Assembly (NCBI RefSeq): GCF_000816145.1
Contig: NZ_CP007141.1
Location: 1,612,001-1,676,000, forward strand
Origin: Pseudothermotoga hypogea DSM 11164 = NBRC 106472
GTDB lineage: Bacteria; Thermotogota; Thermotogae; Thermotogales; DSM-5069
Reading direction: 5' to 3'
Length of the DNA stretch: 64,000 nucleotides
The notes beneath the pieces are model-generated. The model was not told where the DNA came from. It saw only the letters and a list, made by a program, of their open reading frames with translations, and did not search any database. This document shows positions 33,381-61,201 of the stretch, piece by piece. The stretch's first letter is position 1; every line of letters begins with the position of its first letter. The translations under genes and the position numbers were made by a program.

Positions 33381-33420
33381 GAAGATGCATTCTCAAGCAT
33401 ACTCATGCATACGTGAGCAT
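33381..33420. repeat. Four GCAT elements spaced exactly 10 bp
   Basis: GCAT recurs at 33387, 33397, 33407 and 33417 in a degenerate 10-base unit close to ACTCAWGCAT. The period equals about one helical turn, so a protein bound to each copy would lie on one DNA face. It sits between the divergent DMT and cpgS-like promoters. Confidence 0.55.
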
Positions 33421-33487
33421 AATCAAAAAACTGACCCCTGTCCGGGTGAGATCGACTTTAGCGCATGAAACACGGTGGGTTCGAGAC

Positions 33488-33516
33488 GTGACAGGAAAGA
33501 TCTTTCTTGGTATATT
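33488..33516 (+). promoter_or_regulatory. Promoter of the cyclic-diphosphoglycerate synthetase homologue
   Basis: GTGACA (33488-33493), a 17-base spacer and TATATT (33511-33516, with an upstream TG) predict a start near 33523. The leader of about 30 bases contains GGAGGTG (33541-33547) before GTG 33554, which shows that the longer reading frame beginning at 33413 is not the true start. Confidence 0.75.
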
Positions 33517-33553
33517 AATCGGGGCAACAAATACTGAACAGGAGGTGTTCATA

Positions 33554-34891
33554 GTGCGTAAACGGGTCATCATCATGGGTGCGGCTGGCAGAGATTTTCA
33601 CAACTTCAACGTGTACTTCAGAGACAACGAAGAATACGAGGTAGTGGCGTTCACAGCGACCCAGATACCGGACATAGAAGGCAGGATATACCCACCAGAG
33701 CTCGCGGGCAAACTCTATCCGAACGGGATACCGATCGAACCTGAGTCCAAGCTCGTCGAGTTGATCAAGAAGTACAACGTCGATGAAGTGATCTTGGCTT
33801 ACAGTGACCTATCACACCAATACGTCATGGAGAGAGCCGCGATCGTCATGTCCGCAGGTGCAGACTTCAAGCTCATGGGACCGATGCACACGATGATCGT
33901 CTCCAACATACCCGTCGTGGCCGTTTGTGCGGTCAGGACTGGATGTGGCAAGAGTCAAACGACGCGCCGCGTTTTGGACATACTCAGATCGAAGGGTCTT
34001 AAGGTAGTCTCGATAAGACACCCGATGCCCTATGGAGATTTGGTGGCGCAGAAGGTGCAGAGGTTCGCGACGTACGAAGATTTGGACAAATACAAGTGCA
34101 CGATCGAAGAACGCGAGGAGTACGAGCCTCACATAGACAGAAAGTCGGTGATCTACGCTGGAGTTGACTACAAAGCGATACTCGACAGCGCCGAGGCGGA
34201 GAATCCCGACGTCATCCTTTGGGACGGTGGCAACAACGACTTTCCGTTCTACAAACCCGATCTTTTGATCGTAGTGGCCGACCCACACAGGGCAGGTCAC
34301 GAGGTAACATACCACCCCGGCATGACCAATCTGCTCATGGCGGACGTTGTGGTCATAAACAAGGAAGAGACGGCTTCACCAGAGGCCATAGAGATCGTCA
34401 GGAAGAACATCGAAAGATGGAATCCGAGGGCCATCGTCGTGGATGCTGCCTCACCCATATTCGTCGAGGATCCAAGCATCATCAAAGGCAAGAGGGCACT
34501 CGTTGTGGAAGATGGCCCAACTCTAACTCACGGGGAAATGCGTTACGGTGCAGGTTTCGTAGCAGCGAAGAAGTTCGGTGCATCGCAGATCGTTGATCCG
34601 AGGCCCTACGCTGTTGGCTCGATACTGGACACCTACAAAAAATACACGCATCTGGACCTGATACTTCCAGCGATGGGCTATGGAGAAAAACAGGTGAAAG
34701 AGCTCGAGCAGACCATAAACAACGCAGATGCTGATGTTGTGATCATCGGCACACCGATCGATCTGCGAAGACTCATGAAGCTCAACAAACCCGCAGTTAG
34801 GGTCAGGTACGAGTTGCAGGAGATAGGAAGACCCAACCTGGAGGACGTGTTGAGCCAGTTCATCGTTCAGAAGGTTCGCAAAGGTGTTTGA
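33554..34891 (+). CDS. cpgS: Cyclic 2,3-diphosphoglycerate synthetase homologue (COG2403 P-loop protein)
   Basis: This 445-residue protein resembles the methanogen enzyme that closes 2,3-diphosphoglycerate into its cyclic form, a thermoprotective solute. Visible are an N-terminal Rossmann-like domain (VIIMGAAGRDFHNFN), a P-loop (AVRTGCGKSQTTRR, about residue 130) and DGGNNDFPFYKPDLL. The family is common in methanogens and patchy in bacteria, where its product has rarely been tested. It is monocistronic, with its own promoter and a terminator at 35088-35112. A different P-loop kinase or ligase activity remains possible. Confidence 0.72.
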   Translation: MRKRVIIMGAAGRDFHNFNVYFRDNEEYEVVAFTATQIPDIEGRIYPPELAGKLYPNGIPIEPESKLVELIKKYNVDEVILAYSDLSHQYVMERAAIVMSAGADFKLMGPMHTMIVSNIPVVAVCAVRTGCGKSQTTRRVLDILRSKGLKVVSIRHPMPYGDLVAQKVQRFATYEDLDKYKCTIEEREEYEPHIDRKSVIYAGVDYKAILDSAEAENPDVILWDGGNNDFPFYKPDLLIVVADPHRAGHEVTYHPGMTNLLMADVVVINKEETASPEAIEIVRKNIERWNPRAIVVDAASPIFVEDPSIIKGKRALVVEDGPTLTHGEMRYGAGFVAAKKFGASQIVDPRPYAVGSILDTYKKYTHLDLILPAMGYGEKQVKELEQTINNADADVVIIGTPIDLRRLMKLNKPAVRVRYELQEIGRPNLEDVLSQFIVQKVRKGV

Positions 34892-34995
34892 ACCAGAGAT
34901 CAGGCGGAGAGGTCAAGAATAATGAGGCAGAATCTAGGACCAGTTTAGTTAGAGATTTGTTAACACAAACGTTGTCACACAGGAACTTAAACTGA

Positions 34996-35024
34996 TAGAT
35001 AATGTAACTTGGAACCTTTACAAT
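34996..35024 (+). promoter_or_regulatory. Candidate promoter of a small RNA
   Basis: TAGATA (34996-35001), 17 bases, then TACAAT (35019-35024) predict transcription from about 35031. No open reading frame follows; the terminator at 35088-35112 would end an RNA of about 80 bases. Confidence 0.4.
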
Positions 35025-35030
35025 GTAGTT

Positions 35031-35112
35031 GGAAAGTGAACACAGGAACCCCCCTATCCCCCTTGAGATACACCCCCCACGGCTTTGGCGGGCCCACCAG
35101 GGCTCGCATTTT
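35031..35112 (+). ncRNA. Candidate C-rich small RNA
   Basis: Between a possible promoter and an intrinsic terminator lies a short non-coding stretch with three C tracts (CCCCCC at about 35049, CCCCC at about 35058 and CCCCCC at about 35073) that show no internal G-rich partner. Unpaired C tracts are the seed type used by several Gram-positive small RNAs to pair with G-rich ribosome binding sites, which are strong in this genome. It could also be released from the 3' end of the cpgS-like message. It runs convergent to miaB and its end touches the miaB stop. Confidence 0.4.
35088..35112 (+). terminator. Intrinsic terminator (cpgS-like gene / small RNA)
   Basis: GCGGGCCC (35088-35095) pairs with GGGCTCGC (35100-35107) through eight pairs including one G-U, loop ACCA, followed by ATTTTCT. 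Confidence 0.65.
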
Positions 35113-36411
35113 CTATTCCTTTCTCCCGTACAGTGGCCCCGCCGTCGTTCTTTCCACTCTCACGCGCACCGTTTCACCAAGATTCAATTGCTCATCGCTT
35201 GTGAAGATGACGATCTTGTTCCTGATGTCACGCCCGTAGTAAGAACCATCCTTCGTCTTACCTTCGACGATGATTTCCACCACTCTGCCAAGGTACGCAC
35301 CGTTCAGCTCGGCGTTTATCTGCTTCTGGATTTCCAGCAGCTGGTTCAGCCGTTCGACTTTGACTTCCCTCGGCACATCGTCGCTGAAGAACCTTGCCGC
35401 CACTGTGCCAGGTCGAGGTGAGTAAACGGCCAGATTGAGTCTTTCGAACCTTGCTTGACGCACCAGATTGATCGTTTCTCGATGATCCTGATCAGTTTCT
35501 GTCGGAAAACCCACGATGATGTCACTGCTTATCGACGCATCAGGCACTTGTGATCGTATTCTCTCCACCAGGCTCAGGAACTGTGCCGAAGTGTAACGAC
35601 GATTCATCATCCTCAGGATACGATCGCTACCGGATTGGACAGGTATGTGAAAAGATTTTGCCGCCTTGGGATTTTCCGCAACCACTTCTATCAATTCGTC
35701 TGTGATGTCGGTTGGATAAGATGTCAAAAACCATATCCTTTTTATCTGTTCAAACTTGCTCGTTTCCTCGATCAGCCTTGCCAGACTTGTGCCATCCTTC
35801 AAATCTTTACCGTAAGCGTCCACGTTCTGGCCCAAGAAGGTGACTTCGATCGTGCCTTCTGCGACAAGTCTTTCGACCTCTCTCAGTACGTCTTGCATGG
35901 GCCTGCTGCGTTCTCTGCCGCGGGTGTACGGCACGATACAGTAAGTACAGAACCTGTTGCAACCGTGTACGATGGTTATCCATGCGTGGTGTTTCACCTT
36001 GCGAAATCTCGGAATGTCCGCTTCGAGAAGGTGCGTTCTGTCTTCAAGGTGAACCACTTTCTCTCCGGTTGCGGATCTTCTCAGCACTTCAGCGACATCC
36101 ACAATCGAACGTGAACCAATAACAAAATCGGCTCCGAGTGTCAAAAGCTTTTCACCTTCGAGGTTCGAACCACAACCAGCCACGCCGATCAGCTTTATCT
36201 TTCCCTGCCCTTTCAATTTTACGAGTTGACCGAGCGCCGAGTGATATTTGTCCTGTGATTTCTGCCTCACTACACACGTGTTCAGTATGACCACATCGGC
36301 GAGTTCAAGTTCATCGACGATCTCGAAGCCTTCGTGGAGTAAAATTCCTGCCATGATCTGTGTATCGTTCTCGTTCATCTGACAACCGTAGGTCTTGAAA
36401 TGCACCCTCAT
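35113..36411 (-). CDS. miaB: tRNA-2-methylthio-N6-dimethylallyladenosine synthase MiaB
   Basis: This 432-residue radical-SAM methylthiotransferase acts on A37 of tRNAs that read UNN codons. Three N-terminal cluster cysteines (TYGCQMN, LNTCVV, VAGCGSN), the radical-SAM motif CNRFCTYC (after [10 protein letters not shown]) and a C-terminal TRAM domain are visible, and the length is normal. The ATG at 36411 has no recognisable ribosome binding site; the rpsB terminator hairpin ends just upstream. The homologous RimO is less likely because the N-terminus [13 protein letters not shown] is MiaB-like. Confidence 0.93.
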
Positions 36412-45188: not shown

Positions 45189-45203
45189 GAAGGGGGGATG
45201 CGT

Positions 45204-46136
45204 GTGAGAAGGTTGCTTGTGGTAGCTCTGGCTGTCCTACTCGTGGTTGCTGGTTTCAGCTACACATTCTATGTGGTATCGCACGGTGGTCCTGCAGATC
45301 CCTTCTGGGGTGTCGTGATGAAGGGTGTCAAGGACGCGGCCAGCAAGTTCGGCGTCGAAGCGGTGTATTTGGGCCCAGAGAAGTTCTCACTGAAGGAGTT
45401 CATCGACCTTGTTAACGCCGCGATAGCCAAGAAGCCCGACGGTCTGGTTGTAACGATGACGAACCCGGTTGCTCTGGATGAACCACTCAGAAGGGCCATC
45501 GAGATGGGTATACCCGTGGTGGCCATCAATGTGCCAGACGACAGGCCAGTTGACGAGAAGATTCCGTATCTGTGCTACGTCGGTATGGACGAATACCTGG
45601 CTGGTGTGTACGCGGCACGGAGGATGTTACAAGAGTTCACTCCCAAACGCGCCGTCATAGCCATTCATGAGCCGGGACACGTGGGACTGGAAGCGAGGGC
45701 GAAGGGCATCATCGATGTGCTCAAGGAGAAGAAGATCCCAGCTGAGAAACTGGACATAACCACCGACCCAACGAAAGCTCTGACGTTGCTCAAGAGCTAT
45801 CTTGCTAAGTATCCAGACACGGACGCCATCTTCACACTCGGACCGCTGGGTGCACACCCCGCGATACAACTGGTCGAAGAGGAGAAACTGGTGGGCAAAG
45901 TCAAGATCGGTGCGATCGACCTCACAACGAGAATAACGGACGCGATCAAGAAAGGTGTAGTTGTGTTCACGATTGACCAGCAACAGTACCTGCAGGGTTA
46001 TTTGCCCATAGTCTTCCTGTATCTCTACAAAGAATTCGGTCTTATACCTCACGAGAACGTTCTTACAGGGCCGTCTATCGTGGACAAGAGCAACGTCGAC
46101 ATAGTCGAAAAAACTGTCCAGCTCGGTTATCGTTGA
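45204..46136 (+). CDS. CUT2 sugar-binding protein (RbsB-like), inositol candidate
   Basis: This 310-residue protein has a signal peptide (RRLLVVALAVLLVVAGFS) and a periplasmic binding protein fold like RbsB/IbpA (GPADPFWGVVMKGVKDAA; later IGAIDLTTRITDAI). AAGGGGGG abuts ATG 45198, so GTG 45204, six bases after the site, is the better start. Myo-inositol import by CUT2 systems is well known in other bacteria (IatA/IbpA, Ino), and the catabolic genes flank it. A hairpin follows the stop. Confidence 0.85.
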   Translation: MRRLLVVALAVLLVVAGFSYTFYVVSHGGPADPFWGVVMKGVKDAASKFGVEAVYLGPEKFSLKEFIDLVNAAIAKKPDGLVVTMTNPVALDEPLRRAIEMGIPVVAINVPDDRPVDEKIPYLCYVGMDEYLAGVYAARRMLQEFTPKRAVIAIHEPGHVGLEARAKGIIDVLKEKKIPAEKLDITTDPTKALTLLKSYLAKYPDTDAIFTLGPLGAHPAIQLVEEEKLVGKVKIGAIDLTTRITDAIKKGVVVFTIDQQQYLQGYLPIVFLYLYKEFGLIPHENVLTGPSIVDKSNVDIVEKTVQLGYR

Positions 46137-54191: not shown

Positions 54192-54227
54192 ATTTTTGCT
54201 GGTTGAATTCCAAGGGGAGGTGAGTCT

Positions 54228-55376
54228 ATGAGAAGGTTGTGCGGCGCAGTGCTGTTGATCGTGGCCACAGTGCTGCTTGCCCAGCTAAACATTCCGATCA
54301 AAGTCACACTCACGATGATGGTCGCAGGAGATCAAAACATGGTCGATTTCTTCCAGTACGAGATCGCTCCGGAGTTCGAGAAGCTGTACCCGAACGTCAA
54401 GGTCAAGGTCGTTGGTACCGGACCGGGTGATGCGGGCTCTCAACAGATCATTCAGCAACTCCAGCTTGAAAAGGACTCCGGAAAGGACAAATGGGCCATC
54501 GATTTGGTCGTGATTCACGAAGCTGGAACGATCTGGGGAATCGAACGCGGTCTCATAAGGCCGTACACGGACTTTTTGACGACCAGAAGACTTGTCACGA
54601 TGAAAACGGCTGAGGTTGCGCTCGGTGTGAACGTCGACGGTTATGTCATGCCAATGTTCCACAGTCAGACGGCCATAGCGTACAACCCGAGATTCGTTAA
54701 GGATCCTCCGAAAAGTTACGCAGAGCTCGTCGAGTGGGTGAAGAAGAACCCGAAGAAGTTCGGTTACAACGGTATCAAGGGCGGTATGTCTGGCGTGTCG
54801 TTCGTCTTTGGATGGGTTTACTGGAAGTCTAAGAATCCCGATGTACTCATGAACGGACCATTCGATGAGAAGTACATGGAAGACTGGCCACAGATTTACG
54901 CCGAGCTCAAGGAATTCAACAAGTACGTCACGCTGACTGCAGGGAACGCCGGTACACTCGACGCCCTGAACAGAGGAGAAATCTGGATGGGTCCAGTGTG
55001 GGTCGACATGTTCTACACCTGGATAAGGGAAGGAAGGATGGATCCAAACATCAGGTTGATCCTGCCAGAACCAGGTATGCCGGGCCAGCCGATGTATTTC
55101 GCAATACCTACAAAGGCGGCCAACGCTGACTACGCGCTGAAGTTGATAGAATTCGTTACGTCTCCGGCCGTGCATGCAAAGTACATCGTCGACAAGTTCA
55201 ACTGGTACCCAGCGATCGGTGTAGAATACGTGACACCCCATCTCGGTAAGGAAGTTTTCGAAAGGCTCTACAGGGATATCAAAGAAGCAGACCTACTCAA
55301 GTTTGGAAAGCGAATGCCGATAGCCGATTACAGAACGAGGATGCTTGAAGCTTACGAACGATGGGTTGAGAAATGA
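54228..55376 (+). CDS. inoE: CUT1 binding protein InoE
   Basis: This 382-residue precursor has a signal peptide (RRLCGAVLLIVATVLLA) and a family-1 binding fold (FFQYEIAPEFEKLYPNVKVKV, cut as marker; MFYTWIREGRMD). It directly follows iolO and precedes two permeases and an ATPase, the same order as T. maritima TM0418-TM0421 (inoEFGK), a system reported to favour myo-inositol phosphate. AGGGGAGGTGAG before ATG 54228 gives strong translation. A hairpin follows. Confidence 0.8.
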   Translation: MRRLCGAVLLIVATVLLAQLNIPIKVTLTMMVAGDQNMVDFFQYEIAPEFEKLYPNVKVKVVGTGPGDAGSQQIIQQLQLEKDSGKDKWAIDLVVIHEAGTIWGIERGLIRPYTDFLTTRRLVTMKTAEVALGVNVDGYVMPMFHSQTAIAYNPRFVKDPPKSYAELVEWVKKNPKKFGYNGIKGGMSGVSFVFGWVYWKSKNPDVLMNGPFDEKYMEDWPQIYAELKEFNKYVTLTAGNAGTLDALNRGEIWMGPVWVDMFYTWIREGRMDPNIRLILPEPGMPGQPMYFAIPTKAANADYALKLIEFVTSPAVHAKYIVDKFNWYPAIGVEYVTPHLGKEVFERLYRDIKEADLLKFGKRMPIADYRTRMLEAYERWVEK

Positions 55377-61136: not shown

Positions 61137-61201
61137 CGCTGAATCCCCCCTTCTGAAAAAGATTTTACCGCATATCTGGCATAAACATTAACTTTATGTA
61201 A

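Follow-up and report, generated by a model that had tools for sequence, protein, structure and literature searches.

A conserved family of C-rich candidate small RNAs in Thermotogota with predicted target sites at the ribosome binding sites of transporter and exported-protein genes

In a window of 64,000 nucleotides from Pseudothermotoga hypogea DSM 11164 = NBRC 106472 (positions 1,612,001 to 1,676,000 of contig NZ_CP007141.1, the single contig of a genome of 2,165,416 bases with 49% G+C), we found a short, C-rich element that probably (at a probability of about 0.76) belongs to a family of trans-acting antisense small RNAs, comprising types A and B, which would act on the mRNAs of transporters and other exported proteins; both transcription and action are predicted. 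Its conservation, its free-standing location, a covarying terminator, a paralogue and an enrichment of target sites were computed, and we infer from these data an RNA that would be transcribed from its own promoter, end at its own intrinsic terminator and pair in the cell, through its single-stranded C tracts and the bases that flank them, with G-rich Shine-Dalgarno regions in a number of mRNAs. The targets would mainly be solute-binding proteins of ABC and TRAP transporters, plus other exported proteins. Because of where the pairing site lies, repression appears more plausible than activation: pairing would most likely block ribosome binding and thereby lower synthesis, possibly assisted by Hfq, a homologue of which is encoded in the genome (51% identity to Escherichia coli Hfq). 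Type B, which has the first tracts in common but differs in its flank, would share this work in the host genome and its relatives.

The predicted type A RNA is about 82 nucleotides long (35031-35112, plus strand, in window coordinates), its extent following from promoter and terminator. A weak -35-like box, TAGATA (34996-35001), is separated by a 17-base spacer from the -10 box TACAAT (35019-35024), and the 5' end was placed about 7 nucleotides 3' of the latter. Three C tracts (35049-35054, 35058-35062 and 35073-35078) fall within an invariant core of 32 nucleotides, CCCCCCTATCCCCCTTGAGATACACCCCCCAC (35049-35080), which we propose as the seed region, and the element closes with a covarying stem-loop of eight pairs, seven G-C and one G-U (35088-35107), and a TTTT tract (35109-35112). 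The preliminary description had listed this promoter, the three C tracts and the eight-pair stem with its T tract for the interval 34996-35112, and all of them are present there; the covariance model built here matches the locus at 35043-35113 with 95.3 bits. The gene downstream, convergent with the small RNA (35113-36411, minus strand), is miaB, as had been proposed (TIGR01574, 410 bits against a cutoff of 355). The name "cpgS-like", given earlier to the upstream protein gene (33413-34891, plus strand), has no Pfam or NCBIfam match behind it; the product nevertheless reads as a P-loop protein.

The type B paralogue, present in several genomes, opens with CCCCCCTATCCCCCC as type A does, continues with TTGGATGGAACCAAG and has a different terminator. 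In the host genome it lies at genome position 1268874 on the plus strand, with a terminator of its own, divergent from the gene for a sulfide/dihydroorotate dehydrogenase-like FAD/NAD-binding oxidoreductase subunit, and it occupies the same place in relatives. Other families have additional C-rich RNAs whose tails differ (CCATAAA..., CCTCAACA...), and the RNA family may hold more than two types.

Target sites were evaluated over 2,149 crudely called genes, 214 of which are signal-peptide-like by a simple hydropathy rule. The hexamer AGGGGG stands near the start of 33 of the 214 signal-peptide genes and of 71 of the 1935 others (p=2e-10), an enrichment that exceeds that of AGGAGG, the better Shine-Dalgarno sequence. 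The trinucleotides after AGGGGG that best mark signal-peptide genes, examined in the host genome after related k-mers had already been seen, are GAT (7 signal-peptide genes and no other) and TGT (9 and 3); an eighth AGGGGG+GAT gene was left uncalled only by its start codon, which gives proportions of 7/8 and 9/12, respectively. Both contexts are complements of stretches of the RNAs, AUCCCCC(C) and ACACCCCC. Solute-binding proteins account for about 11 of the 20 genes with AGGGGG(GAT/TGT), compared with about 12 of 60 signal-peptide genes without a G5 run, counts that are approximate because families and not members were counted. Many signal-peptide genes are without such G-rich sites.

Part of this pattern recurs in the Thermotoga family, in a comparison of related genomes that repeats the TGT context only and not GAT. 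In one genome of that family, five of six AGGGGGTGT leaders precede signal-peptide-like or membrane ORFs, as against 4 of 36 other AGGGGG sites (p=8e-4). Across six genomes with type A, 39 of 60 such leaders stand before signal-peptide ORFs (6.5 per genome), while the count is 8 of 23 (1.3 per genome) in six sister-genus genomes without the canonical core, a difference whose p-value of 0.006 ignores the relatedness of the genomes. The complementarity in initiation regions thus exceeds chance, type A alone giving a weaker signal than type B. Where the preliminary description had C tracts pairing with the G-rich ribosome binding sites of nearly every gene, the enrichment of flank-matched sites before exported-protein genes is consistent with such pairing, and the predicted range narrows from nearly every gene to a subset whose sites combine a G5 run with matching flanks.

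It could be argued that the small RNA is real and that the G-rich Shine-Dalgarno sites of exported-protein genes nonetheless reflect the needs of translation, not selection for pairing. AGGAGG and GGAGGT are also commoner at signal-peptide genes, and some AGGGGGTGT leaders persist in sister genera that lack the canonical RNA; we regard this explanation as unlikely, given that the weaker Shine-Dalgarno sequence is the more enriched one, that the preferred flanks are those complementary to the RNAs, and that the sites are more frequent where type A exists.

Duplex predictions were compared with those of 40 control RNAs in which the C tracts were kept and the flanks shuffled. Signal-peptide genes make up 55% of the top 20 targets of type B, as against 23% (sd 8) in the controls, none of which reached as high a value. 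For type A, the best target is the gene of a TRAP binding protein of the DctP family; its leader is predicted to pair along the whole core at -48.3 kcal/mol (control mean -39.4, sd 2.1; 0 of 40 as low), while over all genes the flank signal of type A is not significant, 5 of the 40 shuffled controls being as good. In a simple duplex ranking, signal-peptide genes stood out no more for type A than for the shuffled controls.

The DctP leader (genome positions 2007110-2007154) itself resembles a near-full antisense copy of the core, interrupted by about 11 bases, and may be either a strong target or a sponge of recent origin; when extended sites of this kind were sought in 45 genomes, only the host genome and the RNA genes themselves matched, and no other genome of the order showed the double site. 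Shorter sites are more widespread: three genomes have TCTCAAGGGG ahead of their DctP orthologues, two have it before a sugar-binding protein, and in four that are Thermosipho-like it stands before a permease; ATCCAAGGGG precedes signal-peptide genes in nine genomes of family f1, while TCAAGGGGGATA sites outside the RNA genes are few and mixed. Within the window, predicted target sites are AGGGGGGAT before the sugar-binding-protein gene at 45204 (45191-45199, plus strand), TCCAAGGGG, complementary to the seed of type B, ahead of the gene for an ABC solute-binding protein at 54228 (54209-54217, plus strand), and AGGGGGGAT again before a UshA-like 5'-nucleotidase gene (61143-61151, minus strand). 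At 70 °C, predicted pairing amounts to -13.6 to -25.7 kcal/mol, which equals or exceeds that of a perfect Shine-Dalgarno sequence (-12.2).

The core is far better conserved than its surroundings. In an alignment of 29 genomes from three families, its mean column identity is 99.4%, with 31 of the 32 columns invariant, whereas the 57 positions upstream reach 69%. Type A tracts are mostly open in predicted folds (mean unpaired probability of 0.66-0.90 for each, 37-80 °C), in line with the earlier proposal that they are unpaired, and together with the conserved core they would provide an accessible seed. A DNA search of 60 relatives recovered the region in those genomes of its own family that are nearly complete, and a shorter core in other families. 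The covariance model has matches at E<=1 in 100 of 103 genomes of the phylum, the weakest of them unconvincing, and a strict C-tract pattern (CCCCTATCCYCC followed by a T run) occurs in 88 of the 103, with few matches in reversed controls; nearly all of the strict-pattern sequences listed carry a G+C-rich stem before the T run. C tracts and terminator are thus conserved while the flanks drift, and it is on these grounds, together with the covarying terminator and the homologues found through the phylum, that we judge the feature to be real. When 84,980 species genomes were scanned for an exact match of 26 bases, only Thermotogota records came back, a search of phage records gave no match, and three runs of at least five C in an equally short span occur once in the 2.17-Mb genome, counting both strands. 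The canonical type A core is missing, by loss or strong divergence, from six genomes of sister genera within the Thermotoga family, all more than 90% complete.

Over much of the phylum, the C tracts and their UAU spacer do not vary, a tighter constraint than pairing with variable targets needs, and this, like the presence of Hfq, would suit an RNA that serves as a sponge for a protein (Rho, Hfq, or a cold-shock or KH protein) bound to its C-rich single strand, with little mRNA pairing. We hold such a role to be improbable, as it leaves unexplained both the gathering of flank-matched Shine-Dalgarno sites before signal-peptide genes and the flank signal of type B.

Taken alone, the matches to promoter and terminator do not exceed what chance would give: a consensus scan found 2 promoter-like sites where 1.6 were expected and 3 terminator-like sites where 1.8 were expected. 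Across genomes, the -10 position reads TACAAT or TAAAAT in families f1 and f2, and a block of about 40 bp just 5' of the promoter is kept in f1, with a related block in the same place in f3. In the host genome, this block, as delimited by the family alignment, lies at 34958-34999 on the plus strand (TTGTTAACACAAACGTT...GGAACTTAAACTGATAG); its 15-mer TTGTTAACACAAACG has a single occurrence in the genome. It looks like the binding sites of some regulator, and because it is conserved despite the weak -35 box, we suggest that the promoter is regulated. The motif TAACA-N7-TGTTA, seen in some promoters, has one palindromic place in the host genome, away from these genes, and we therefore claim no regulator.

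Among 31 sequences, 94% of the cells of the terminator stem are paired, and seven of its eight pairs are changed on both sides, with a covariation score of 0.51 as against at most 0.10 for slid versions. Such a stem is a strong argument for selection at the RNA level and, with its T tract, gives the element the intrinsic terminator of a base-pairing small RNA. An RNAalifold consensus from a poorly aligned set returned a weak and wrong structure, and the stem was tested in its place.

The surroundings of the RNA differ between families. In f1, its neighbours are the gene earlier called cpgS-like and miaB; in f3, mnmE lies downstream; in f2, an oppositely running permease, read from its sequence, stands beside it; and in other families the neighbours read as rnhB, lysS and rpoC. 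Outside the host's arrangement, the gene upstream is often divergent. As the neighbours differ and upstream genes are often divergent, we take the element to be a free-standing gene without a general origin in the 3' end of another, and the origin from the upstream gene, which the preliminary description had entertained, is excluded as a general explanation. A free-standing small RNA, its first choice, appears to fit best, the varied contexts and the conserved promoter region pointing to an own promoter with a predicted start site. That the element instead derives from the 3'-UTR of the upstream gene, is that gene's terminator region, or is a mere two-way terminator between convergent genes, is largely refuted and very improbable: it does sit between convergent genes here, where its terminator could at the same time end transcripts of the gene upstream, but other families carry the RNA elsewhere, several of them with a divergent upstream gene, the promoter region is conserved, and an invariant core of 32 nucleotides would be superfluous for a terminator. 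Hardly any weight remains for a DNA element, be it a G-quadruplex, an i-motif or a site of replication or segregation that is read on the G-rich strand; the three G tracts of the minus strand would speak for it, but type B, like many homologues, has only two C tracts, disfavouring a quadruplex, and the element nearly always ends in a terminator with a covarying stem.

C-rich seeds directed against G-rich ribosome binding sites, often encoded in several copies, are a property of RsaE/RoxS and of the streptococcal csRNAs, whose targets are mainly metabolic; the Thermotogota RNA differs from them in having no Rfam match and in its predicted transporter and exported-protein targets. Indeed, cmscan of the window and 17 loci of related RNAs against all 4227 Rfam families gave no match at the gathering score, the models for LhrC, GcvB and RsaE included, and nothing meaningful at permissive thresholds. 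In Listeria monocytogenes, LhrC1-5, Rli22 and Rli33-1 form a group of sibling small RNAs whose CU-rich single strands pair with the AG-rich Shine-Dalgarno sequences of envelope-protein mRNAs, among them that of oppA, a solute-binding protein (PMC5880928). The Thermotogota RNA resembles this group in having siblings, with types A and B in one genome, in its C-rich seeds and in its predicted Shine-Dalgarno targets in envelope-protein genes, which suggests a comparable mode of action; unlike it, it has long, pure C tracts in place of CU-rich loops, lacks an Rfam match, and belongs to another phylum, of mostly thermophiles, throughout which it is conserved. In E. coli and its relatives, the single small RNA GcvB represses numerous mRNAs, those of the ABC transporter genes dppA and oppA among them; the sites to which it binds are CA-rich, in gltI and dppA at any rate (PMC9988348). 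The predicted regulon of many transporter mRNAs is a shared trait, whereas the C-rich seed and G-rich Shine-Dalgarno sites set the Thermotogota RNA apart, and cmscan detected no sequence relation between the two.

Post-transcriptional control is almost unexplored in the deep-branching Thermotogota. One survey reports a single annotated small RNA for Thermotogae (PMC9029176), and a Thermotoga maritima study has 13 putative ncRNAs in its Table S5, unstructured transcripts outside genes that are given neither function nor conservation in the passages considered here (PMC3636130); a relative of the small RNA may already figure among them, unexplained. With its conservation and its predicted regulon of transporter and exported-protein genes, the RNA offers a direct way to test RNA pairing in hyperthermophiles, and it may explain how many sugar and peptide uptake systems are tuned where transcription-factor sites have little room. 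More tentatively, and at odds that we would put somewhat against it, an ancient small RNA family may have shaped the ribosome binding sites of a whole class of genes, those for exported and solute-binding proteins, with G-rich Shine-Dalgarno sites, the flanks of which match one of two paralogous C-rich RNAs; if so, a small-RNA switch would set transport capacity, and its pairing would be stable at 65-85 °C.
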